This document shows, one piece after another, positions 4,043 to 17,205 of a DNA stretch of 64,000 bases. Position numbers and translations under genes: made by a program. How positions within the stretch are numbered: position 1 is the first letter of the stretch; every line of letters starts with the position of its first letter. This DNA comes from Bacteroidota bacterium. GTDB lineage: Bacteria > Bacteroidota > Bacteroidia > Bacteroidales > P3. The stretch lies in the NCBI GenBank assembly GCA_017860275.1, contig JAFNAQ010000001.1, positions 248,001-312,000 on the forward strand, given 5' to 3'. The notes below the pieces were generated by a model, which did not search any database, had not been told where the DNA came from, and saw only the letters and a program-made list of their open reading frames with translations.

Positions 4043-5380
4043 ATGCTACTAAATAAAAACTATTATAAGTCTAATTTTAACCTTGCCCTACCAATAATCT
4101 TATCCTCAATTGGTCAATCTTTTGTTCAAATGGTAGACACAATAATGGTAGGACAATTGGGAGCAACAGAACTTGCTGCAGTAGCTTTTGCAGGAACAAT
4201 TTCGATGAATGCTCTTGTATTCGGCATGGGTATAGCAATGGCATTAACTCCTCTAACTGGTCAATGTTTTTCAAAGGGAGAGCATAGGAAAATATCTGTA
4301 TTATTTCAAAATTCTCTTGTCTTAAACCTTATCACCTCACTAATTATTATTGGTGTTCTTTTAGGTATAATGCCTTTTCTTCAATACTTTGGTCAGCCTC
4401 AGGAAATAATAGCAATTGGTAAACCATATTACTTAATAATCACACTTTCATTTATCCCAGGCATACTCTTTTTGACCTTTAAACAATTCTTCGAAGGTAT
4501 TGGAACAACAAAGGCTGCAATGGTAATTACAATATCTGCTAATATCTTAAACATAATACTCAACTATCTTCTAATCTACGGTAAATTTGGATTCCCTGCC
4601 ATGGGCGTAACGGGAGCGGCAATTGCAACATTTATCTCAAAATTCTTAATGCCAATAGCCTTTTTCTTTTATATTTTCTTCCATAAAAGATATAGGAGAT
4701 ATTTGCTATTCTTCAAGGCAAGCAATCTTTCAAAATTTATTCAAGTTAAGATACTTCGTCTTGGAATGCCAATATCAGGGCAAATGGTCTTAGAATTTGC
4801 GTCTCTTATGTTCATTACCATTATGATGGGTTGGGTAAGCAAATATGCCCTTGCGGGTTACCAAATAGTTATCTCTGTTGTTGGTACAACCTTCCTTATT
4901 GCCTCTGGTATTTCGAGCGCAACGACAATACTTGTAAGCCACGAATTTGGGGTTAAAAATTATTCAGAAATAAAAAAACATTTTAAGGTAGGCTATGTTC
5001 TAACCTTGATAATAATGGGATTTTTCTCTCTTATGATAATCCTATTTGGGAAATATATTGCACAAATATTCTCATCGGATATTCAGGTTATCTCTATTGC
5101 CTCTGAGCTTTTTATTGTTGCTGGCATATTCCAATTAATCGATGGCTCTCAGGTCTTATTCCTTGGCGCTCTAAGAGGGATAAACGATGTTGTAAAACCA
5201 ATGAAATATGCCTTTATTTCTTATATCCTAATTGCAGTGCCATTTGCATATATATGTGGATTTATTCTCGATTTAGGCTCTTGGAGCATATTCGCAGGGT
5301 TCTCTGCTGGACTTTTCTTTGCAGCAATTTTATATTATCGTAGATTCTCCCTAAGTATTAAAAAACATATTGAAAATTAA
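4043..5380 (+). CDS. MATE family multidrug efflux transporter
   Basis: The 445-aa inner-membrane protein has about 12 hydrophobic segments in two halves, each opening with the MATE pattern (LALPIILSSIGQSFVQMVDT in the first half, LRLGMPISGQMVLEFASLM in the second). Members of the NorM/MdtK family export cationic drugs or metabolites in exchange for Na+ or H+. It precedes bioB by 6 bp on the same strand, so they are probably co-transcribed. Whether the substrate is linked to biotin is unknown; the pairing alone does not show it. Length is normal for the family. Confidence 0.92.
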   Translation: MLLNKNYYKSNFNLALPIILSSIGQSFVQMVDTIMVGQLGATELAAVAFAGTISMNALVFGMGIAMALTPLTGQCFSKGEHRKISVLFQNSLVLNLITSLIIIGVLLGIMPFLQYFGQPQEIIAIGKPYYLIITLSFIPGILFLTFKQFFEGIGTTKAAMVITISANILNIILNYLLIYGKFGFPAMGVTGAAIATFISKFLMPIAFFFYIFFHKRYRRYLLFFKASNLSKFIQVKILRLGMPISGQMVLEFASLMFITIMMGWVSKYALAGYQIVISVVGTTFLIASGISSATTILVSHEFGVKNYSEIKKHFKVGYVLTLIIMGFFSLMIILFGKYIAQIFSSDIQVISIASELFIVAGIFQLIDGSQVLFLGALRGINDVVKPMKYAFISYILIAVPFAYICGFILDLGSWSIFAGFSAGLFFAAILYYRRFSLSIKKHIEN

Positions 5381-5386
5381 ATTATC

Positions 5387-6343
5387 ATGATAAATCAATT
5401 AACTGAAAAAGTAATAAGTGGTCAAAATATTAGTGTAGATGAAGCTATTTGGCTGGCAAAGAATGCTAAAAAAGAAGAATTATATGAGGCATCTCATATA
5501 ATCACTGAGAAATTTGCTTCCAAGACCTTCGATATGTGTTCTATAATTAATGCCAAGAGTGGACTATGCCCCGAAAACTGTGCATGGTGTTCTCAAAGCT
5601 CACATTACAAGACTAATGCCGATGTATATGATTTAGTGGATAAAGATACTTGCCTAAAGCTTGCAAAATATAATGAGGCTCAGGGAGTGAAGCGTTTCTC
5701 TTTAGTTACAAGTGGTAAGAAACCTAATTCAAAACAATTAGACTCTCTTTGCTCGACTTCAAACCACCTAAGAGAAAATACTAATCTAAGGCTTTGTGCA
5801 TCTCTTGGTTTATTAGAAGAAAGCGAGCTCAAGGCTCTTTTTGACCAAGGCATTGTTCGTTATCATTGCAATCTTGAAACTGCTCCTTCATATTTCCCAA
5901 AGCTTTGTTCGACTCATACAATTGAGCAAAAGATTAATACTCTAAATTCTGCAAGAAAGGTAGGTATGGATATTTGTAGTGGTGGTATTATTGGAATGGG
6001 AGAAACAATGGAGCAAAGAATTGAATTTGCCTTTACTCTAAAAGACTTAGGGGTAGGTTCAATTCCTATCAACCTTCTTCAACCAATAAAGGGTACTCCA
6101 CTAGAAAGCCAAAGCCCACTTACCGAAGAAGAGGTCTTAACAACAATAGCCTTATTTCGTTTTATCAACCCCTCAGCCTATCTACGTTTTGCTGGAGGTA
6201 GAGCACAGCTAAGCAAAGAGGCTATGCAGAAATGTCTTTATATTGGGATAAACTCTGCAATTGTTGGCGATATGCTAACAACCCTAGGCTGCGACGTATC
6301 GGAAGATAAAGAAATGATAAAACATTCAGGATATAATCTATAA
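5387..6343 (+). CDS. bioB: Biotin synthase (radical SAM), with a replaced 3' end
   Basis: The 318-aa enzyme inserts sulfur into dethiobiotin to make biotin. The radical-SAM [4Fe-4S] cysteines are C61, C65 and C68 ([12 protein letters not shown]). Conserved BioB blocks follow, including [20 protein letters not shown] and the C-terminal [10 protein letters not shown]. The rest of the biotin genes are 11 kb away. From 6152 to the stop, the sequence is nearly duplicated at 7811-8002, across a two-gene insertion. Up to codon KEMI all differences are synonymous third-base changes; only the last few residues differ (KHSGYNL here, MSSGYTL there). The gene is intact, and the last 60 or so codons probably arrived with the insertion. 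Confidence 0.96.
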
Positions 6344-6365
6344 TAGAACTATTTTAATATTTTTC

Positions 6366-6395
6366 TTGCTTTTCAGAAAACAAGTTGTATCTTTG
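6366..6395 (+). promoter_or_regulatory. Well-formed promoter with no gene downstream
   Basis: TTG at 6366-6368, a 19-bp spacer and TATCTTTG at 6388-6395 form an excellent Bacteroidetes promoter. The plus strand downstream has no convincing ORF; transcription would run antisense into the 3' end of the gene at 6438-7010. It may drive a short RNA, or be a remnant of whatever followed bioB in the donor of the insertion. Confidence 0.55.
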
Positions 6396-6427
6396 CATCA
6401 TCTTATCAACCATGTGTTGAAAAAGTT

Positions 6428-6460
6428 ACGAGGTCGTCTATTTAGGCGATCTTTGCTCTT
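6428..6460. terminator. Possible stem-loop at the end of the DUF3800 partner gene
   Basis: GAGGTCGTC (6429-6437) can pair with GGCGATCTT (6445-6453) around a 6-nt loop, with some G-U pairs. On the plus strand TGCTCTTTT follows. It could end a short plus-strand transcript from the promoter at 6388; the hairpin overlaps the last codons of the minus-strand gene. Weak evidence. Confidence 0.3.
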
Positions 6461-7010
6461 TTATAATAGAATCCCTAATCTTTGCTACAAGTTCATTCGG
6501 AGAATATCTTTTATTATTATTCTCTTTCAACCATTGGTTGTATTCTTTTTCTTTTTTTCTTGTATCATGATTATACTCACTAACAAATGCAGTCCATAAT
6601 AGTATATAATTACTTCTCACATCTAAAATCACAAAGTAATCAATATCATCACAATTATCCAACCAGATACATATTCTGTGCTTACCTCCCCGTTCCTGTT
6701 CCCATATTTTAAGTTCCCATTCTTCAGTTTTCTCAATAGCTGGTCTTGCCCAAGGAATACATTCGCATCTCCTAAGATCTGGTTCTCTTTCATTTTCAAT
6801 TTCCCCTTTATGAGTCATATGATAGAAAGTATAAGCTCTGTCTTTAAAAATAGGATTAAATTTTAAATTTAATTGACAAGAACCAAATGTTGTTTTATGA
6901 ATAATAAAATCATTTTTAAACACCTCATATATAGCATCAATATATCTATGATAATCCCCTCCATAATCTTCTAAACTTATTTTTTGAGGTAAATCTCTAT
7001 TATTTTCCAT
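6438..7010 (-). CDS. DUF3800 partner protein, function unknown
   Basis: The 190-aa product starts at ATG 7010, overlapping the DUF3800 stop by 11 bp, which points to coupled translation. A longer start at 7034 is possible. The protein is soluble and has no signal peptide. It has recognisable blocks: FYHMTHKG near residue 60, then PDLRRCECIPWARP, then a basic/aromatic core (KIWEQERGGKHRICIWLD) and DYFVILDVRSNYILLWTAF. I recall this pattern from short proteins loosely labelled 'phage P1-related', but I cannot confirm that and assign no activity. It sits inside the bioB-end insertion with DUF3800. Confidence 0.75.
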   Translation of the reverse strand: MENNRDLPQKISLEDYGGDYHRYIDAIYEVFKNDFIIHKTTFGSCQLNLKFNPIFKDRAYTFYHMTHKGEIENEREPDLRRCECIPWARPAIEKTEEWELKIWEQERGGKHRICIWLDNCDDIDYFVILDVRSNYILLWTAFVSEYNHDTRKKEKEYNQWLKENNNKRYSPNELVAKIRDSIIKEQRSPK

Positions 7011-7707
7011 AACCACCTTTCCAGATAAAAACATTAAATTTATCTTCGTGAATCAGCGTACTACTTAAAAGATTATAACCACTTCTTTCTCTAATTTTTT
7101 TTATTAGTTTTAATTTTGCATCACTCGTATTCAAATTCCTATGCAAATAGGATATTGCTCCTGTAAAAAAATCAGATAATGAAACTAGTTCTACTTCGTG
7201 AGAACGAACTTGCTGTATTTTTTTTATTATCTCCTTATTATAATCATAATTATTATTACAAAGAATCTCATGTAGTTTTTCAACTTTTTTTTGACCAAGA
7301 GTATCTTTGATATCAAGATATATATTATAAGACATAGAGGGATTAAGTATTGACTTCAACAAATCAAAATACATCTTATAATAGAAAGTATCATGTGTTT
7401 GATTAAAACGATCGTGATCTAAGAGTTTCTTATCTGGAACAACTAATACACGAAAATGTAAATCACTGTTATCAAAGAAATAATTAAGCACATCTAAGTA
7501 ATATGAATATTTAGCATTAGAAACTTTATTCCACTTCAATTCAAAATCCGATTTTAATCCATGTTCAACTTTTATCTCTCTAAGTCTTTTAAAAATCAAG
7601 TCTTTTTTCTCTTCCCTACACCAAATTGCTCCAAGAGTCATTACCGAAATATTATCATTCTCTAAATGACAACTTTCATCACAATAGATATTATATATAT
7701 CACCCAT
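7000..7707 (-). CDS. DUF3800 domain protein
   Basis: The 235-aa protein has the DUF3800 layout: an N-terminal strand ending in an acidic motif (NIYCDESCH, D10-E11), a central YLDIKDT acid and a C-terminal VELVSLSDFFTGAISYLHR block with a conserved Asp. This arrangement suggests an RNase H-like fold with grouped acidic residues. DUF3800 genes are frequent in mobile and defence regions, but no activity is established for this one. It is the first gene of a two-gene unit with 6438-7010, under its own promoter at 7765-7792, inside the bioB-end insertion. Confidence 0.88.
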   Translation of the reverse strand: MGDIYNIYCDESCHLENDNISVMTLGAIWCREEKKDLIFKRLREIKVEHGLKSDFELKWNKVSNAKYSYYLDVLNYFFDNSDLHFRVLVVPDKKLLDHDRFNQTHDTFYYKMYFDLLKSILNPSMSYNIYLDIKDTLGQKKVEKLHEILCNNNYDYNKEIIKKIQQVRSHEVELVSLSDFFTGAISYLHRNLNTSDAKLKLIKKIRERSGYNLLSSTLIHEDKFNVFIWKGGYGK

Positions 7708-7764
7708 AACTATTATTATCTATTTTACTAGTTTTATTAATTAAAGCACAATCAATTCAATCCC

Positions 7765-7792
7765 CAAAACTACTAATAATAATTTTAGTCAA
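7765..7792 (-). promoter_or_regulatory. Promoter of the DUF3800 two-gene unit
   Basis: Read on the minus strand, TTG (7792-7790), a 17-bp spacer and TAGTTTTG (7772-7765) fit the Bacteroidetes promoter consensus. The ATG of the DUF3800 gene is about 58 bp downstream. The promoter lies within 20 bp of the duplicated bioB end, so the unit carries its own expression signal. Confidence 0.55.
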
Positions 7793-7810
7793 GAAATAAA
7801 TTTATATTTT

Positions 7811-8002
7811 TTATTTCGTTTTATCAACCCCTCAGCCTATCTACGTTTTGCAGGAGGAAGAGCACAGCTAAGCAAAGAGGCAATGCAGAAATGTCTTTAT
7901 ATTGGGATAAACTCTGCAATAGTAGGCGATATGCTAACAACCCTAGGCTGCGACGTATCGGAAGATAAAGAAATGATAATGAGTTCAGGATACACGCTTT
8001 AA
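7811..8002 (+). pseudogene. bioB: Duplicate 3' end of bioB left behind the insertion
   Basis: This segment matches 6152-6343 with only five scattered substitutions up to 7977, all synonymous third-base changes (for example GCT/GCA, ATT/ATA, GTT/GTA). It then diverges into a different ending, MSSGYTL and TAA. It has no start codon and no upstream bioB sequence. Its last 18 bp overlap the 3' end of the convergent DUF1003 gene, a compact arrangement that looks ancestral. I read it as the original chromosomal gene end, displaced when a DNA segment carrying a related bioB end and two genes entered. Confidence 0.9.
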
Positions 8003-8677
8003 TATCTTAGCGAGCATCTCCATTTGAGCTTCATGTATCTCAATAATTTCTTTTTGTTCATTAATGATTAGATGATCAATCTTCTCGTTTAGAATTCCTA
8101 TTTCTATTTCTGCCTTAAGGTTTACCATATAATCTTTTTTAGCTCTTTCTCTATCTTTTTCTTCCTGACGGTTTTGACTCATCATAATAACAGGTGCTTG
8201 AAGTGCAGCAACAGACGATAAGATTAGATTCAAGAGAATAAATGGAAATGGATCAAATTGTTTATTGGTAAGCCAAAAAACATTTATGCAAATCCAAATA
8301 AGCAGAAAAATCAAAAATGAGATAATAAAAGTCCAACTTCCTCCAAACTCTGCCATCTTATCTGCTACCCTTTGACCAAAACTTAGTTTAGGTGTTTCCT
8401 CATTTTCAATTACATCGGATATAGTTTTTTTATCCTTTAGTGATGTCAATACTTTATCTTCCAATTTTGTAATTGTTCTAACATTTGTTTGCATTAAATG
8501 CTCTATATGTTTTTCTCTATAATAATCAAGCTCACTAATAGAGAGATAATCATTATCATCAAAATCAGGATGATCTTTTTTTATTAATTGTTTAATAGTT
8601 TGTCGTACCAATTTTCCTGAAATCCTATCTCCGATAGGGAATTCCTTTTTTGACAAATCACTAATAAAGGTTTTCAT
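7985..8677 (-). CDS. DUF1003 membrane protein
   Basis: The 230-aa protein has the DUF1003 signature: [19 protein letters not shown], then [19 protein letters not shown] and [12 protein letters not shown]. It has two transmembrane helices near residues 116-136 and 145-165, then a charged, probably coiled-coil C-terminus. The family's role is not settled; I make no functional claim. Its 3' end overlaps the displaced bioB end by 18 bp in convergent orientation. Confidence 0.88.
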
Positions 8678-8818
8678 ATTTTTGAATGTATTTGATATAA
8701 AAAAACAAGCATAATTCTATGCACATAGAGTATAACTAAAAAAAAAACAAATAGTTTGAATCTTACCTCTGCATCACAAGAAAATTCTTTGCAAACAAAG
8801 CGACAATTTGACTATCAT

Positions 8819-8854
8819 ATTTATGTTCAAAATTGTTCAAAATTGAACATAAAT
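8819..8854. repeat. 12-bp inverted repeat with TGTTCAA cores
   Basis: ATTTATGTTCAA (8819-8830) and its exact reverse complement (8843-8854) flank a 12-nt spacer that itself contains another TTCAA. A counterpart, ATTTTTGTTCA and its complement, lies at 40890-40925 upstream of element B. Both are about 140-150 bp left of the first G-rich motif of their element, so this is probably part of the same unit. Confidence 0.75.
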
Positions 8855-8968
8855 GAACAAATTGAATATGGAAATTACGAAGATTTTAGAAAAAATTACG
8901 ATGAAATTCATGTTCAATTTGTTCATTTTTGAATAAAAATACATCGTTTTTTTTAGTGTTTTTGAGCA

Positions 8969-9250
8969 GGGGGAAGAGAAAATGCAATTTTTCGAGCCTA
9001 TCTTCCCCCTCTAGAACTAATTGATTTTCTATATCTTGATTGAGTCAGGGGGAAGAGGGGGAAGAGAAATCCTATTGTGCGTATACTATTTTTTGAATAT
9101 TGAATATATTATTTCTAAATAAAATATTCAATATTCAATTATTCACTAACTCACTATGAAATCCTCATCCCCCTCTTCCCCCTAGAGCGACAATAAACTG
9201 ATTATTAAACAATTCCAGAGGGGGAAGAGAAATCCAAACTCTCTTCCCCC
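8969..9250. repeat. Palindromic element A, motif GGGGGAAGAG
   Basis: Eight copies of one motif occur. Forward copies are at 8969, 9048, 9057 and 9220; reverse-complement copies start at 9000, 9164, 9173 and 9241. The order is F-R-FF-RR-F-R, which is symmetric on reverse complementation. The centre holds a perfect 15-bp inverted repeat, TTGAATATTGAATAT (9093-9107) and its complement (9124-9138). Element B at 41029-41308 has the same order, length and spacing with a different motif. As RNA or cruciform DNA it could form two short outer hairpins and one long central stem. No protein is encoded. Confidence 0.85.
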
Positions 9251-9308
9251 TCATCATTATTTATCATTCAAATTTCTCCCTTATCATATCCAGAAATAAG
9301 GATGTATT

Positions 9309-9375
9309 AGATTTTTTCTAAAAGAAATCTATACTTTTCTCAGAGAAAACCATAACTTTCTCAGAGAGAAATCCA
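9309..9375. repeat. Three tandem TTTCT/AGAAA palindromes
   Basis: Three palindromic units follow each other at roughly 25-bp intervals: one with TTTCTAAAAGAAA near 9309-9330, TTTTCTCAGAGAAAA at 9335-9349, and CTTTCTCAGAGAGAA from 9356. The same CTTTCTCAGAGA sequence forms the terminator at 56210-56253. Function unknown. Confidence 0.6.
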
Positions 9376-9493
9376 CTTAGATTTGATATAAATTCACCGC
9401 TTTGTAACCTACTTTTTTATAACTAACTTATAATCAATCAATGTTCCATTGTAACCCCTCCTTAGTACAGGAAACAAGGTTTCAAAGTTTAAT

Positions 9494-9543
9494 AGGTTCA
9501 GACTTGCACTAAATCAAGAATATTTAGTACCAAGTCCAAACCT
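9494..9543. repeat. Long imperfect inverted repeat before the LRR cluster
   Basis: AGGTT, GACTTG and ACTAAAT on the left (9494-9514) pair in order with ATTTAGT, CAAGTC and AACCT on the right (9522-9543), broken by short internal loops. It lies upstream of the LRR promoter box and has no T-run, so it is not an obvious terminator. Confidence 0.55.
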
Positions 9544-9592
9544 TTATTATTAAAATCTTTTCAAAAAAATTCCATATTAATTCAAAAAAAAC

Positions 9593-9600
9593 TACCTTTG
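9593..9600 (+). promoter_or_regulatory. Promoter -7 box of the LRR cluster
   Basis: TACCTTTG fits TAnnTTTG and ends 34 bp before the ATG at 9635. No good TTG is visible at -33. Confidence 0.5.
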
Positions 9601-9634: not shown

Positions 9635-11500
9635 ATGAGAAAAAAACTACTAATAGTATTAGTCTTTGTATTAATATGCATTACATCAAAAGTCCAAGCC
9701 TATAGCTTCAGCGCAGTAGCGCCCTCAGGGCAAACATTATACTATAATATCACATCTTCAACTGCACCATATAAAGTTGAGATTACAAGAGAACTATTAT
9801 CTTACCCATATTATTCTACAAAACCGACAGGTGCTTTAGTTATTCCTGATTCCGTTTCATATAATGGGATAACATATTCTGTTACTTCATTAGGGGATTT
9901 TATATTTTATGATTGCTACGGTTTGGTCTCTTTAACAATTCCAACCTCTATTACGTCTATTGGACAGTATGCATTTTATGGTTGCAGCTATTTAACTTCT
10001 GTTGCAATTCCAAACTCTGTTACTTCGATTGCAAATAATTTATTTGAGGGATGCGTAGGCTTAACCTCTGTTTTAATCCCAAACTCTGTTACTTCGATTG
10101 GAAATGCTGCATTTTATCATTGCTGTTCCATAACCTCAATAACAATTCCAAACTCTGTTACTTCAATTGGCGCTGGTGCATTTTCTGCTTGTGGCAGTTT
10201 AATCTCTGTAACAATTCCTAACTCAGTTACTTCAATTGGGGGAAGTGCATTTTATTGTTGCAGAGGGTTAACCTCAATAATAATTCCAAATTCAGTTATT
10301 TCAATCGGAAATTATGCATTTCATAGTTGCAGCGGGTTAACTTCAATTGCAATTCCAAACTCTATTACTTCAATTGGTGATTATGCATTTTTTGGTTGCA
10401 GCACTTTAACTTCTGCAACAATTCCAAACTCAATTACTTCAATCGGGGAATATGCATTTTGTGGTTGCATCGGTTTAACTTCAATTACAATTCCAAACTC
10501 TATTACTTCAATTGGAGATGGTGCATTTTCTGGTTGCAGCGGATTAAATTCTATTACTTGTTTAGACACAGTTCCTCCTCAATTATTTTATGGGTCTTTT
10601 TATAATATAAATAAAGCTATCCCTATATATGTGCCTTGCTCATCAAAATTAAATTACCAAACAGCTCCAAATTGGAATACTTTTACTAATTTCATTGGAG
10701 TAAAAAACACACAAAATGTTTCTGCTTCAATCTGTCAAGGAGATATATACAAAAATTATGGAGCAAGTATTGATTCATCAGGTGTTTATACCTTCGTAAA
10801 TGGATGTGATAGCGTTATATTAAATCTTACTGTTACCCCAATTTATAGTGATACTATTACAGCATATATTTGTCAAGGACAAGTATATAACCAATATGGA
10901 TTTAATGCAGATAGTACAGAAATTTACACTCAAAACTTGCAAACTATTAATGGTTGCGATAGTATTATTACTTTAAATCTTACTGTTAATCCTAGTCCGA
11001 TAACTCCTAGTGGATTATTTGTTGAAAGGAAACATTCTTATTTAGAGATTACTTGGGATAGTGTTGGTGAAAGCTATGAAGTTTATAGAGATGATTCTTT
11101 AATTGCAACAACTTCGCAAGCAATTTATCAAGATACTAATGTCTTGAATGATTCTTCTTATTGCTATAAGGTAAAAGCATTTATAGGAAACTGCGAGAGT
11201 GATTTCTCTGTTGAAGAATGTATGCAGTTTGTTGGATTAAATGATATAAATATTAATAACCAAGATATAACTCTTTATCCAAACCCTACAAATGGAAAGG
11301 CTAAACTTTCTATTCAAAGGTTGAACGATAAGGCTCAAGTTAATATTTTTGATTTAACAGGAAGAGTGCTTAAGACATATACTATTGACACTAATCAAAA
11401 AGAATTAGAGATTGATTTATCTGGTTATGCAAAAGGTGTTTATAATATCTCAATAAATAACAACAACACTAATATTTCAAAGAAACTGATAATTCAATAA
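9635..11500 (+). CDS. BspA-like LRR surface protein with T9SS sorting domain (1)
   Basis: The 621-aa protein has a signal peptide (LLIVLVFVLICITSKVQA) and then about ten 23-residue BspA/LRR_5 repeats of the form [21 protein letters not shown] (residues about 65-310). After that come two GCDSxIxLNLTVNP repeats (about 355-450), a fibronectin III-like segment ([17 protein letters not shown]) and a type A T9SS C-terminal domain ([14 protein letters not shown], then GRVLKTY, ending in KKLIIQ). It should be exported, cleaved and anchored or released by the T9SS. BspA-type LRRs often bind host or matrix proteins, but no ligand can be inferred. First of three tandem paralogues with 13-bp spacers. Confidence 0.93.
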   Translation: MRKKLLIVLVFVLICITSKVQAYSFSAVAPSGQTLYYNITSSTAPYKVEITRELLSYPYYSTKPTGALVIPDSVSYNGITYSVTSLGDFIFYDCYGLVSLTIPTSITSIGQYAFYGCSYLTSVAIPNSVTSIANNLFEGCVGLTSVLIPNSVTSIGNAAFYHCCSITSITIPNSVTSIGAGAFSACGSLISVTIPNSVTSIGGSAFYCCRGLTSIIIPNSVISIGNYAFHSCSGLTSIAIPNSITSIGDYAFFGCSTLTSATIPNSITSIGEYAFCGCIGLTSITIPNSITSIGDGAFSGCSGLNSITCLDTVPPQLFYGSFYNINKAIPIYVPCSSKLNYQTAPNWNTFTNFIGVKNTQNVSASICQGDIYKNYGASIDSSGVYTFVNGCDSVILNLTVTPIYSDTITAYICQGQVYNQYGFNADSTEIYTQNLQTINGCDSIITLNLTVNPSPITPSGLFVERKHSYLEITWDSVGESYEVYRDDSLIATTSQAIYQDTNVLNDSSYCYKVKAFIGNCESDFSVEECMQFVGLNDININNQDITLYPNPTNGKAKLSIQRLNDKAQVNIFDLTGRVLKTYTIDTNQKELEIDLSGYAKGVYNISINNNNTNISKKLIIQ

Positions 11501-11513
11501 AATACTTCAAAGA

Positions 11514-14492
11514 ATGAAACAAAAACTACTAATAGTATTAGCCTTTGTATTAATATGCACAATCTCAAAAGTCCAAGCATACAGCTTCAGCGCAGTAGCC
11601 CCAACGGGACAAACATTGTATTATAATGTTACATCCTCAAACACTGTTGAGATTACAAATCAAAACGCAAGTTTTCCATTTAATACAACAAAACCTATAG
11701 GATCAATAATAATTCCGGATACAGTATTATATAACGGAACAACATACTCAGTAACTTCAATTGGATTTAATGCGTTTTCTGCTTGCTACAATTTAACCTC
11801 CGTAACAATTCCTAACTCAGTTACTTCAATTGGAAATGAAGCATTTTATAATTGCAACGGTTTAAACTCCGTTACAATTCCAAACTCCGTTACATCGATT
11901 GGAAATAGAGCATTTTCTAATTGCAGTGTGTTAATCTCTGTTGCTATTCCAAACGCTGTTACTATTATTGGAAATAATGCATTTTCTTATTGTAGTGGTT
12001 TAACCTCAATATCAATACCAAACGCCGTTACTTCGATTGGATTTAATGCTTTTTACGGTTGCACAAGCTTGACTTCTATAACAATTCCAACTTCTGTTAC
12101 TTCGATTGGGAATAATGCTTTTCAGAATACACCATATTACAACAATATGCCTGATGGAGTCATATATATTAACAATATACTTTACAAATATAAAGGGACA
12201 ATGCCAGCTGGAACAACAATAAATATTCCAGCTGGAACAATAAATATTTCCGAATCCGCTTTTTATGGTTGTACGAATTTAAACTCAATCACAATACCAA
12301 ACTCTGTTACTTCGATTGGCAGTGGTGCATTTTATAATTGCAGCGGTTTAACATCTGCTACAATCCCAAACTCTGTAGCATCTATTGGTACTGATGCATT
12401 GAATGGAACACCTTATTACAATAATATGCCTAGTGGAGTTGTATATATCAATAATGTGCTTTACAAATATAAAGGGGCAATGCCAGCAGGTACAATAATA
12501 AATATACCGTATGGAACAATAAGTATTTCAGGTAGAGCTTTTCAAAACTGTACCGGTTTAACCTCGATTTCAATTCCAAACTCAATCATTTCAATTGGCG
12601 ATTATGCTTTTTCAGATTGTAGTAATTTAAATCCAATTACTATTCCAAGCTCTGTCTCTTTAATTGGGAATTACGCATTTTTTGGTTGTAGTAGCTTAAC
12701 CTCTCTCACAATACCAAACTCAATTCACTCGATTGGAAATAGTGTTTTTTCAAATTGCAGCGGATTAACATCTGTTACAATCCCAAACTCAGTCTCTTCA
12801 ATAGGAGATGGTGCATTTGGAAGTTGTAGCAGTTTATCCTCTTTTACAATTCCAACCTCGGTTACTTCAATTGGCAATTATGCCTTCCTCAATAACTCAT
12901 CATTAAATACCTTATATTTTAATGCAAAGAATTGTATTGCAATGTCATATTTTCCTGTTTTTTCTGGATGCAGTCAACTAAAAAAGTTAGTAATAGGGGA
13001 TAGTGTACAAAATATTCCTTCATTTGCCTTTTATAATTGTAGTTCATTGAACTCAATCAGAAGTTATTCAATCACCCCCCCTGTTGTTTCCAGTAATAGT
13101 TTTTTTGGTGTAAACAAATCAATACCATTTCAGGTTCCATGTATTTCTGTCTCTAGATATCAGTCTACTTTATATTTGCAAGATTTCACAAACATATATG
13201 GGTATATCGACACAACCAACATTGATACAATTTGCAAGTGGCAAATATATAATAAGTTTGGATTTAACTTTTTAGCAGATACATCTGGTTTATACATTCA
13301 AACACTACAAACAAGTAATGGTTGTGATAGTATTGTGAAATTAAATCTAAAAGTATATCCAAGTTATAACTACACAATCAATGCAAGCATATGCAAAGGT
13401 CAGAGGTACACTTTGAATGGATTTGATAATGATACGGCAGGTTTATTTACACAAAATTTACTTACAATAAACGGCTGCGACAGTATAGTAAAATTAAACT
13501 TAACTATTAATCCAAACTATTTAACGACACATTCTGACACTATCTGTAAAGGACATAATTATAATAATTATGGTTTTAATTTTATAGCAGATACAACTGG
13601 TATTTATACTCAAAACTTACAAACTATTAGTGGTTGTGACAGTTTAATCAAATTATATATTATTGTAAATCCTATCTATTCTACATTAAATACCGATACT
13701 ATTTGTCAAGGACAAACTTATAATAATTATGGTTTTAATTTTATAGCAGATACAACTGGTATTTATACTCAAAACTCACAAACTATTAGTGGTTGTGACA
13801 GTATAATCAAATTAAATCTTACTGTAAATCCAAGCTATCTAAACTATTATACCGATACTATATGTCTAGGACAAATATATACCCAATTTGGATTTAATGC
13901 TGATAGTACAGGAACTTATACTCAAAACTTGCAAACTATTAATGGTTGTGATAGTGTAATTACTTTAAATCTTACTATTAATCCTAGTCCTAATACTCCT
14001 AGTGGATTATTGGTTGAAAGGAAACATTCTTATTTAGAGATTACTTGGGATAGTGTTGGAGAAAGCTATGAAGTTTATAGAGATGATTCTTTAATTGCAA
14101 CAACTTCGCAGGCAATTTATCAAGATAGTAATGTAGTAAATGATTCATCTTATTGTTATAAGATAAAGGCATTTATTGGAGACTGCGAGAGTGATTTCTC
14201 TGTTGAAGAATGTATGCAGTTTGTTGGATTAAATGATATAAATATTAATAACCATGATATAACTCTTTATCCTAACCCTACAAATGGCAAAGCTAAACTT
14301 ACTATTCAAAGTTTGAATGATAAGGCTCATGTTATTATTTTTGATTTAACGGGAAGAGCGCTTAAGACATATATTATTGACACTAATCAAAAAGAACTAG
14401 AGATTGATCTATCTGGTTATGCAAAAGGTGTTTATAATATCTCAATAAATAACAACAACACAAATATTTCAAAGAAACTGATAATTCAATAA
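11514..14492 (+). CDS. BspA-like LRR surface protein with T9SS sorting domain (2)
   Basis: The 992-aa paralogue of the preceding gene shares its signal peptide ([18 protein letters not shown]) and an almost identical sorting domain ending in KKLIIQ. Its LRR block is longer and includes two extended repeats with [20 protein letters not shown] and [13 protein letters not shown], an insertion typical of BspA families. Five GCDSxIxLNLxVNP-type repeats follow (about 600-840), each starting near a TDTICxGQxYNNYGF pattern. The 13-bp gap before it is identical to the gap after it, which shows tandem duplication of whole genes. Confidence 0.93.
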
Positions 14493-14505
14493 AATACTTC
14501 AAAGA

Positions 14506-17205
14506 ATGAAACAAAAACTACTAATAGTATTAGCCTTTATATTGATAGGCATTACATCAAAAGTCCAAGCCTACAGCTTCAGCGCAGTATGTTCATCAGG
14601 ACAAACATTGTACTATAATATAAAAACCTCAAACACTGTTGAGGTTACAAGTCAATATTTATCTTATCCTTATTATAATTCAAAACCTACCGGAGCATTA
14701 ATAATCCCGGATTCGGTAAGCTATAATGGAACAATATACTCTGTTACTTCAATCGGAAATGAAGTATTTAGTACTTGTAGCGGTTTAACCTCAATAACAA
14801 TTCCAAACTCTGTTACTTCGATAGGGAATAAAGTATTTAATGAATGTGGTAATTTAACCAGTGTAATAATGCCAAACTCAGTTACATCGATTGGAAATGA
14901 TGTATTTTATAATTGTAAAAATTTAACCTCAATAACTATTCCAAACTCCGTTACTTCGATAGGCGGTTCTGCATTTTCTGGTTGCAGCGGTTTAACCTCA
15001 ATAATTATTCCAAACTCCGTTACTTCGATAGGCGGTTCTGCATTTTCTGGTTGCAGCGGTTTAACCTCAATAATTATTCCAAACTCCGTTACTTCAATTG
15101 GAGGTTATGCATTTCAGAACTGCAGCAGTTTAGCATCTATTACAATTCCAAACTCAGTTGTATTAATTGGACCTGATGCGTTTTATAACACACCTTATTA
15201 CAATAATATACCTAATGGGGTTATATATATTAATAATATGCTTTACAAATACAAAGGCACAATGCCCTATGGTACAACAATAAATATTCCAATAGGAATA
15301 ATAAATATTTGTAGGTCTGCTTTTCAATCTTGCACCAATTTAACCTCAATAATAATTCCAAACTCCGTTACTTCAATTGGAGAATATGCTTTTAGCTACT
15401 GCAGTAATTTAAACTCTATTACAATACCAAACTCAATTACTTCAATTGGAGAATATGCATTTTATAACTGCACAAGCTTAGCCTCTATTACAATTCCAAA
15501 CGCCATTACTTCTATTGAAAATTCTACATTTTGGGCTTGCTGCAGTTTAACCTCTATTACAATACCAAACTCCGTTACTTCGATTGGAAGATATGCATTT
15601 TCTGAATGCAAATTTACCTCTGTTACAATTCCTAGCTCCATTACTACGATAGGTAGTGCAGCATTTTCTAATTGCAGCAGTTTAAACTCTATTACAATTC
15701 CAAACTCAGTAACTTCGATTGGTGGTGGTGCATTTTCCGGTACACCTTATTACAATAATATGCCTGATGGAATTGTATATATCAATAGTGTACTTTACAA
15801 ATATAAAGGCACAATGCCAGTCGGTACATCAATAAATATTCCGACTGGAATAGTAAGTATATCTGATTATGCATTTTCTATGTGCAGCGGTTTAACCTCA
15901 ATAACAATCCCAAACTCCGTCACTTCCATTAAAGATTATGTATTTTCACAGTGCAGCGGCTTAACCTCTGTTCCAATTCCAAACTCCGTTACTTCAATTG
16001 GCGATCATGCATTTTATCACTGCAGCAGTTTAGCCTCTATAACAATTCCAGACTCCGTTACTTCGATTGGCAATAATGCATTTTCTTATTGCACAGGTTT
16101 AACCTCAATAGCCTGCAAAGCAATAAATCCTCCGTCATTAAAAGGGAATCAAACATTTTTTTTTGCAAACAATACCATCCCGGTATACGTGCCTTGTGCA
16201 TCAAAATCAAATTACCAAACAGCTCCAAATTGGAGTGATTTCAATAACTTCATTGGAATAAAAAACACACAAAATATTTCAGCTTCCATCTGTCAAGGAA
16301 ATATATACACGAATTATGGAGCAAATATTGATTCATCAGGTGTTTATACCTTTGTAAATGGATGTGATAGCGTTATATTAAATCTTACTGTTACCCCTAT
16401 TCATAATGACACTATTACCTCAAACATTTGTCAAGGTCTAGTATATAATCAATATGGATTTAATGCCGACAGTACTGGGATTTATACTCAAAACTTGCAA
16501 ACTATTAATGGTTGTGATAGTATTATTACCTTAAATCTTACTGTTAATCCAATCTCTCAAACCTCTTATATCGATTCAATTTGTCAAGGACAAAATTATA
16601 ATAATTATGGTTTTAATTTTATAGCTGATACAACTGGCTTATATACACAAAACTTACATACTATAAACGGTTGCGATAGTATTATTACTTTAAATCTTAC
16701 TGTTAATCCTAGTCCTATTACTCCAAATGGATTATTGATCAAAAAGAAACCTACATATCTTGAAATTTCTTGGGATGGCAATGGAGATAGGTATGAAGTA
16801 TATAGAAATGACTCTTTGATTGCATCAACTTCGCAGGCAATTTATCAAGATAGTAATGTCTTGTATGATTCTTCCTATTGTTATAAGGTAAAAGCATTTC
16901 TTGAGGCTTGCGAAAGTGATATGTCTAAATCAGCTTGCATGAGGATCGCTGGATTAAAAGACATAAATATTAATAACCAAGATATAACTCTTTATCCTAA
17001 CCCTACAAGTAGTGATATTTATTTGAAAATAGATCAAAGTATTATTGGTTCTGGATATACAATTACAAATACATTAGGAAAGATTGTATTACAGGGAAAA
17101 CTACTAGATGTTAGTATGAATATTAATCTAAATGATTTCCCTCAAGGTATTTACTTTCTAAATATTGAAAAAACAAAACAAACCCTCAAGGTGATAAAAC
17201 AATAA
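14506..17205 (+). CDS. BspA-like LRR surface protein with a different T9SS sorting domain (3)
   Basis: The 899-aa third paralogue has a signal peptide, about 22 LRR_5 repeats, three [14 protein letters not shown] repeats and a fibronectin III-like segment. Two adjacent LRR units are identical at DNA level over 69 bp (14941-15009 and 15010-15078), so they duplicated very recently. Its sorting domain starts like the others (LYPNPTSSD) but then differs ([16 protein letters not shown], ending LKVIKQ), so the end of the gene was exchanged or diverged separately. Confidence 0.92.
14941..15078 (+). repeat. Exact 69-bp tandem duplication inside an LRR gene
   Basis: Positions 14941-15009 and 15010-15078 are identical base for base and encode one 23-residue LRR unit each. 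A multiple of three, the duplication keeps frame. Neighbouring units are diverged, so this pair is recent. Confidence 0.95.

Follow-up and report, generated by a model that had tools for sequence, protein, structure and literature searches.

What is the function of a two-gene unit that stands on its own between two copies of the 3' end of the biotin gene bioB in the chromosome of a Bacteroidota bacterium (GCA_017860275.1)? The unit lies in a 64,000-nt stretch of contig JAFNAQ010000001.1 (positions 248,001 to 312,000, forward strand), referred to below as the window, whose coordinates are used throughout; positions in other loci carry the name of the locus. The original prediction took the two genes for a defence-type or selfish module, and our analysis supports it by matches to a catalogued phage defence candidate (PDC-M04), by the constant pairing of the genes and by their embedding in restriction-modification (R-M) operons. 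The two genes probably form a portable module with an antivirus or toxin function, and not a housekeeping unit.

Organization of the locus

The features of the insertion are as follows.

6152..6345, + strand: 3' end of the intact bioB gene (copy 1), left direct repeat of the insertion
6346..6437, no strand: left spacer of 92 bp, single copy in the genome
6438..7034, - strand: partner gene, 198 aa (ATG 7034) or 190 aa (ATG 7010), predicted BECR-fold RNase; PDC-M04B, homologue of P1 RlfB
7000..7010, - strand: frame overlap of 11 bp, between the partner's second ATG (7010) and the DUF3800 stop, read from the sequence
7000..7707, - strand: DUF3800 gene, 235 aa, predicted RNase HII-fold nuclease; PF12686, PDC-M04A, homologue of P1 RlfA
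7765..7792, - strand: possible Bacteroidetes-type promoter of the pair, TTG N17 TAGTTTTG, a weak candidate from a motif scan
7811..8004, + strand: 3'-end fragment of bioB (copy 2), right direct repeat, without a start and with its own stop at the end

Profile searches placed the DUF3800 protein in Pfam family PF12686 (E 2.7e-10) and found no Pfam or NCBIfam family for the partner, while PADLOC profiles matched both proteins (PDC-M04A, E 4.4e-94, for DUF3800; PDC-M04B, E 2.9e-60, for the partner). As originally proposed, the pair is the only cargo of the insertion, since nothing else is encoded between the two copies of the bioB 3' end, and the overlap, put at about 11 bp, is exactly that when counted from the partner's second ATG. 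Among dereplicated relatives the gap is most often -4 bp (16 loci), followed by -11 bp (9) and -1 bp (8), and tight coupling is therefore a trait of the family. The claim that the pair has its own promoter stands in part: the -33 and -7 elements at 7765-7792 are near the consensus, which makes a promoter plausible, but the candidate is weak, because its spacer of 17 nt is shorter than the usual 19-21 nt.

Predicted folds of the two proteins

The model of the DUF3800 protein (pLDDT 89.4) shows an RNase H fold throughout, with no DNA-binding domain, and resembles RNase H2 (Foldseek E 2e-6; VIA Z 13.3 for 3puf and 13.2 for 1eke). Five residues (D10, E11, E56, D132 and D179) are invariant in 65 sequences, and D10-E11, D132 and D179 make up the acidic DE...D...D site typical of RNase HII. 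We take D10-E11 to be the counterpart of D7-E8 of archaeal RNase HII (model residue 4 aligned to residue 1). The RNase H-like nuclease guessed at the outset can thus be specified as RNase HII-like: we predict a metal-dependent nuclease of that fold, and the complete, retained active-site tetrad speaks for an enzyme. An RNase H fold has also been read from an AlphaFold model of another DUF3800 protein (PMC10910872).

The partner was modelled with AlphaFold2 on 75 aligned partner sequences (pLDDT 94.4). Its N-terminal helices (13-16, 20-37, 60-66, 79-83 and 85-93) precede a four-strand meander (101-107, 110-120, 123-131 and 136-143), which is followed by further helices. The BECR fold combines an N-terminal helical segment with a four-strand meander whose fourth strand bears the active-site Ser or Thr, and several BECR clades have an N-terminal His (PMC3482391). 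In the modelled partner the same architecture is seen, with T140 as the strand-4 Thr and H64, in helix 60-66, as the N-terminal His. Both residues are invariant in the 75 sequences, as are P8, G69, E72, R75, R81 and W103, so that the conserved blocks PDLRRCE...RP and R-I-x-IWL of the original prediction are real; the defined fold expected from them, which was left unnamed, is predicted to be of the BECR type. Scores of similarity are low. Foldseek returned no match to the partner model at E<=0.001 (mostly weak NTF2-like rows), and the top ranks of VIA, taken by RelE/HigB-type proteins, CdiA-CT, BrnT and MqsR, have Z values of 4.7 to 3.4 (4.7 to 3.6 for RelE, HigB, CdiA-CT and BrnT), all below 5. 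No match was found in a PDB sequence search with the profiles of either protein, or in Pfam for divergent partners. We predict that the partner is a metal-independent, BECR-type RNase acting through H64 and T140 together with conserved arginines.

Pairing, distribution and decay

A scan of one genome per species yielded 329 relatives, of which 80 loci from many phyla were kept. Wherever the contig allows, DUF3800 lies directly upstream of the partner, the exception being two near-identical contigs (L105/L109) in which the partner itself is truncated. Divergent pairs recovered with the PADLOC profiles have the same layout, and visual inspection places their His, Arg-Trp and Thr at matching positions. 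The partner hardly ever lacks DUF3800, contrary to the possibility, raised originally, that it occurs mostly alone.

Two short genes that overlap, the first being larger and regulator-like and the second encoding a predicted toxin-like fold, are what one would expect of a type II toxin-antitoxin system. Such an addiction module would have the BECR protein as toxin and DUF3800 as a (possibly enzymatic) antitoxin, and would serve mainly to stabilize the DNA that carries it, e.g. R-M operons or the P1 plasmid-prophage. Carriage by P1-like plasmids is consistent with this, since 123 of the 127 places of the pair in E. coli are on plasmids, and so is the pattern of decay, with L017/L176, where an intact DUF3800 gene accompanies a partner truncated by a nonsense mutation, and one genus in which many partners are broken. 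Partner fragments without DUF3800 persist too, however, and remnants of both kinds mean that neither gene is clearly the dangerous half. Moreover, in place of the small antitoxin with a DNA-binding domain known from type II systems we find an enzyme-like protein of 235 aa that has the invariant tetrad of RNase HII and lacks such a domain in its model, and addiction does not need a strong preference for R-M operons. This explanation is less likely than the one we favour below, but it is a serious rival. In the genus with many broken partners (g95, L009-L035), the same truncation at about residue 22 is seen in three genomes, and others have a stop near residue 114.

Association with restriction-modification operons

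When the neighbouring proteins were grouped by clustering, Pfam assigned the main clusters to HsdR, HsdS, HsdM, and type III Mod and Res. Type I or type III R-M genes lie within 6 kb of the pair in 33 of the 58 loci whose upstream flank reaches 4 kb or more, a set that contains some close relatives and does not amount to 58 independent events; of 20 arbitrary 16-kb stretches of related genomes taken as a control, 1 had an R-M match, a partial one. All 77 R-M genes in these loci are on the strand of the pair. Typically the genes run hsdM-hsdS-[DUF3800-partner]-hsdR or mod-[pair]-res, and DUF3800 usually begins a few bases after hsdS or mod. Three of the loci counted as having the pair alone adjoin genes for type IIG or ISP methyltransferases, and Drt1a, GajB and mad2/mad3 also occur as neighbours in this group. 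On a tree of dereplicated partners the distribution of the type I label requires 14 changes, no fewer than 10 of which are forced, and the pair therefore keeps moving in and out of R-M operons. In one type I operon with the pair (L112), another DUF3800 gene, distinct from that of the pair, lies between hsdM and hsdS (L112:4149-4934).

Conserved housekeeping contexts, which the original prediction had named as a contrary outcome, are thus not what surrounds the pair. A further alternative is a non-defence role in RNA metabolism, in stress or repair, with the pair merely carried along with variable loci, and one copy (L007) does lie beside a umuC-like gene. Such a role is very improbable in view of the patchy distribution (30 of 395 genomes of the phylum and none of 36 close relatives), the frequent decay and the R-M enrichment.

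The window copy itself has no R-M gene beside it, and the HsdR and N6_N4-methylase matches of its genome are on other contigs. Its nearest neighbour on the partner tree, from Paludibacter sp. (L041; support 91/63), resides in a type III operon.

Origin of the insertion

The bioB 3'-end repeats (194 nt) are 93% identical, with 13 base differences that are, save in the last seven codons, mostly silent third-position changes. The copies therefore seem to have diverged as working alleles before they were joined, and not by decay after a duplication. We infer that the duplicated bioB 3' end is the scar of recombining foreign DNA: the pair would have come with DNA whose joining at the 3' end of bioB left a second bioB fragment behind. 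In homology-facilitated illegitimate recombination, homology acts at one end and illegitimate joining occurs at the other (PMC3240628), and duplications of this kind at bioB and hsdR would be its expected trace. Single-crossover integration of a circle, or the action at the gene end of an integrase since lost, would be alternative routes of entry. Among ten genus relatives compared bioB is absent (weak, distant matches only), and in empty-site comparison within the family one relative has a full-length and another a partial copy; because bioB is so rare in the family, the donor cannot be traced in this way.

The hsdR duplications were found in type I operons. In L112 the first 66 nt of hsdR are present on both sides of the pair (95% identical), and in L061 three copies of the hsdR start flank the pair and the Walker-A cassette next to it, which suggests that modules are stacked between hsdS and hsdR via duplication of gene ends. 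These repeats and cassettes lie at L061:4181-7140 and L112:9150-10720, the Walker-A gene of L061 being zeta-toxin-like. Flanking direct repeats were considered as a general rule and rejected, as they are clear only in the window, L112, L061 and L105/L109, and weaker in L044, L063 and L068.

Several other features of the region were recorded. A perfect Bacteroidetes promoter (TTG N19 TATCTTTG) at 6366-6395 (+), within the 92-bp spacer, reads antisense into the partner; perhaps it was left over from a gene downstream in the donor, or it gives rise to antisense RNA. On the other side, a gene for a DUF1003 membrane protein (7985-8677, - strand; PF06210, E 3e-39) overlaps the bioB fragment with its 3' end by about 18 bp, on the opposite strand. 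Three large tandem ORFs follow at 9635-17205, the first two encoding BspA-like leucine-rich-repeat proteins with near-identical C-terminal domains, and the gap before them contains polypurine/polypyrimidine inverted repeats (9001-9228; AGGGGGAAGAG), whose matches to eukaryotic miRNA models are due to chance. An Rfam search of 5300-9600 for DUF3800-type RNA motifs gave chance matches only, to unrelated and mostly eukaryotic families.

The pair in phages P1 and P7

A tblastn search identified the partner as rlfB of P1 and rapB of P7, adjoining the DUF3800 genes rlfA and rapA. In both phages the pair is located downstream of repL, next to oriL, with an annotated C1 operator upstream; the P1 genes are annotated as "possibly associated with lytic replication", and PHROG labels the partner a replication protein. 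This label would be right if the pair had a function of the mobile element, such as processing of RNA or RNA:DNA that aids phage or plasmid replication or escape from defence, and had later been co-opted by hosts. C1 control, proximity to repL/oriL and an RNase HII fold, which acts on RNA:DNA hybrids, are all consistent with such a function, but both P1 genes were found to be non-essential in a CRISPRi screen, in which knock-down of either was harmless (PMC10695390). Furthermore, most copies are chromosomal, many of them in R-M operons, and viral contigs with the pair are few and mostly P1-like. We consider this explanation unlikely.

Proposed role of the pair

The presence of two linked, predicted RNases within R-M operons points to RNA cutting as a second line behind DNA restriction. 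The best explanation, to which we give a probability of about 0.5, is that the pair is an R-M-linked, RNA-targeting defence module, similar in logic to PrrC. The two proteins would be made together from their overlapping frames and act as one complex, in which the BECR RNase would be the growth-stopping effector, cutting cellular or phage RNA, and the DUF3800 protein may sense or process nucleic acid and hold the effector inactive until the cell is infected or the linked R-M enzyme fails. The complex would thereby back up DNA restriction, as PrrC does with EcoprrI. In the window, where no R-M gene adjoins the pair, this guard logic cannot apply as such, and the pair would work alone. Against this explanation stand the low scores of BECR similarity, the position of the P1 pair next to the lytic replicon together with the harmless knock-down of either gene (PMC10695390), and the fact that an antitoxin-like role is unusual for an apparently active nuclease.

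A broader version, which we put forward only tentatively, makes the pair a second arm, one that cuts RNA, of restriction systems in general (types I, III, IIG and ISP); its BECR RNase would be held by the RNase HII-like partner and freed when restriction fails or acts; the P1 copy could then be an exclusion or counter-defence device labelled as a replication function.

Comparison with known systems

The kind of pair described here is already catalogued, as the two-gene phage defence candidate PDC-M04, which has both proteins side by side; the two proteins of the window pair do not differ from it, whereas the window copy is distinguished by standing alone between duplicated bioB ends. In the literature searched we found no published anti-phage activity of PDC-M04 and no paper naming it. 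New in this study are the fold assignment of the partner, the RNase HII-fold model of DUF3800, the position of DUF3800 upstream of the partner across loci, the count of pairs embedded in R-M operons, the joint treatment with P1 rlfAB and the scar of the insertion. An uninterpreted candidate and an unexplained P1 operon are thereby brought into one testable hypothesis, which names the predicted catalytic residues (H64 and T140 of the partner; D10, E11, D132 and D179 of DUF3800).

The rlfA-rlfB genes of P1 and rapA-rapB of P7 share with the window pair their order, their overlap and all invariant residues of the partner, at identities of 52% (DUF3800) and 31% (partner). They differ in being phage-borne, C1-controlled and situated beside repL, whereas the window copy is chromosomal and its partner has a longer C-terminus.

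The predicted partner also resembles the BECR-fold RNases (RelE/HigB, colicin D/E5 and CdiA-CT tRNases) in its helices and meander, strand-4 Thr and N-terminal His. It lacks detectable sequence similarity to their Pfam and PDB members and would form a separate clade.

PrrC is encoded inside a type I R-M operon, that of the type Ic enzyme EcoprrI, which silences it until a phage anti-restriction factor releases it (PMC2610378); the relatives of the pair lie in R-M operons in 33 of 58 loci, and the window copy does not. PrrC has an ABC-type ATPase part and a different nuclease, whereas the pair consists of two small proteins without an ATPase (Pfam gave no ATPase or PrrC match) and, unlike PrrC, also occurs in type III, IIG and ISP operons. 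The pair as PrrC proper is ruled out by the missing ATPase, the different folds and the two chains.

Finally, the accessory nucleases of Cas12a2 and type VI-F CRISPR loci likewise place an RNase H-fold DUF3800 protein beside a defence effector, although those loci contain TPR fusions and no BECR partner has been described for them (PMC10910872, PMC12669027). DUF3800, found beside these CRISPR systems, is now linked to R-M systems as well.
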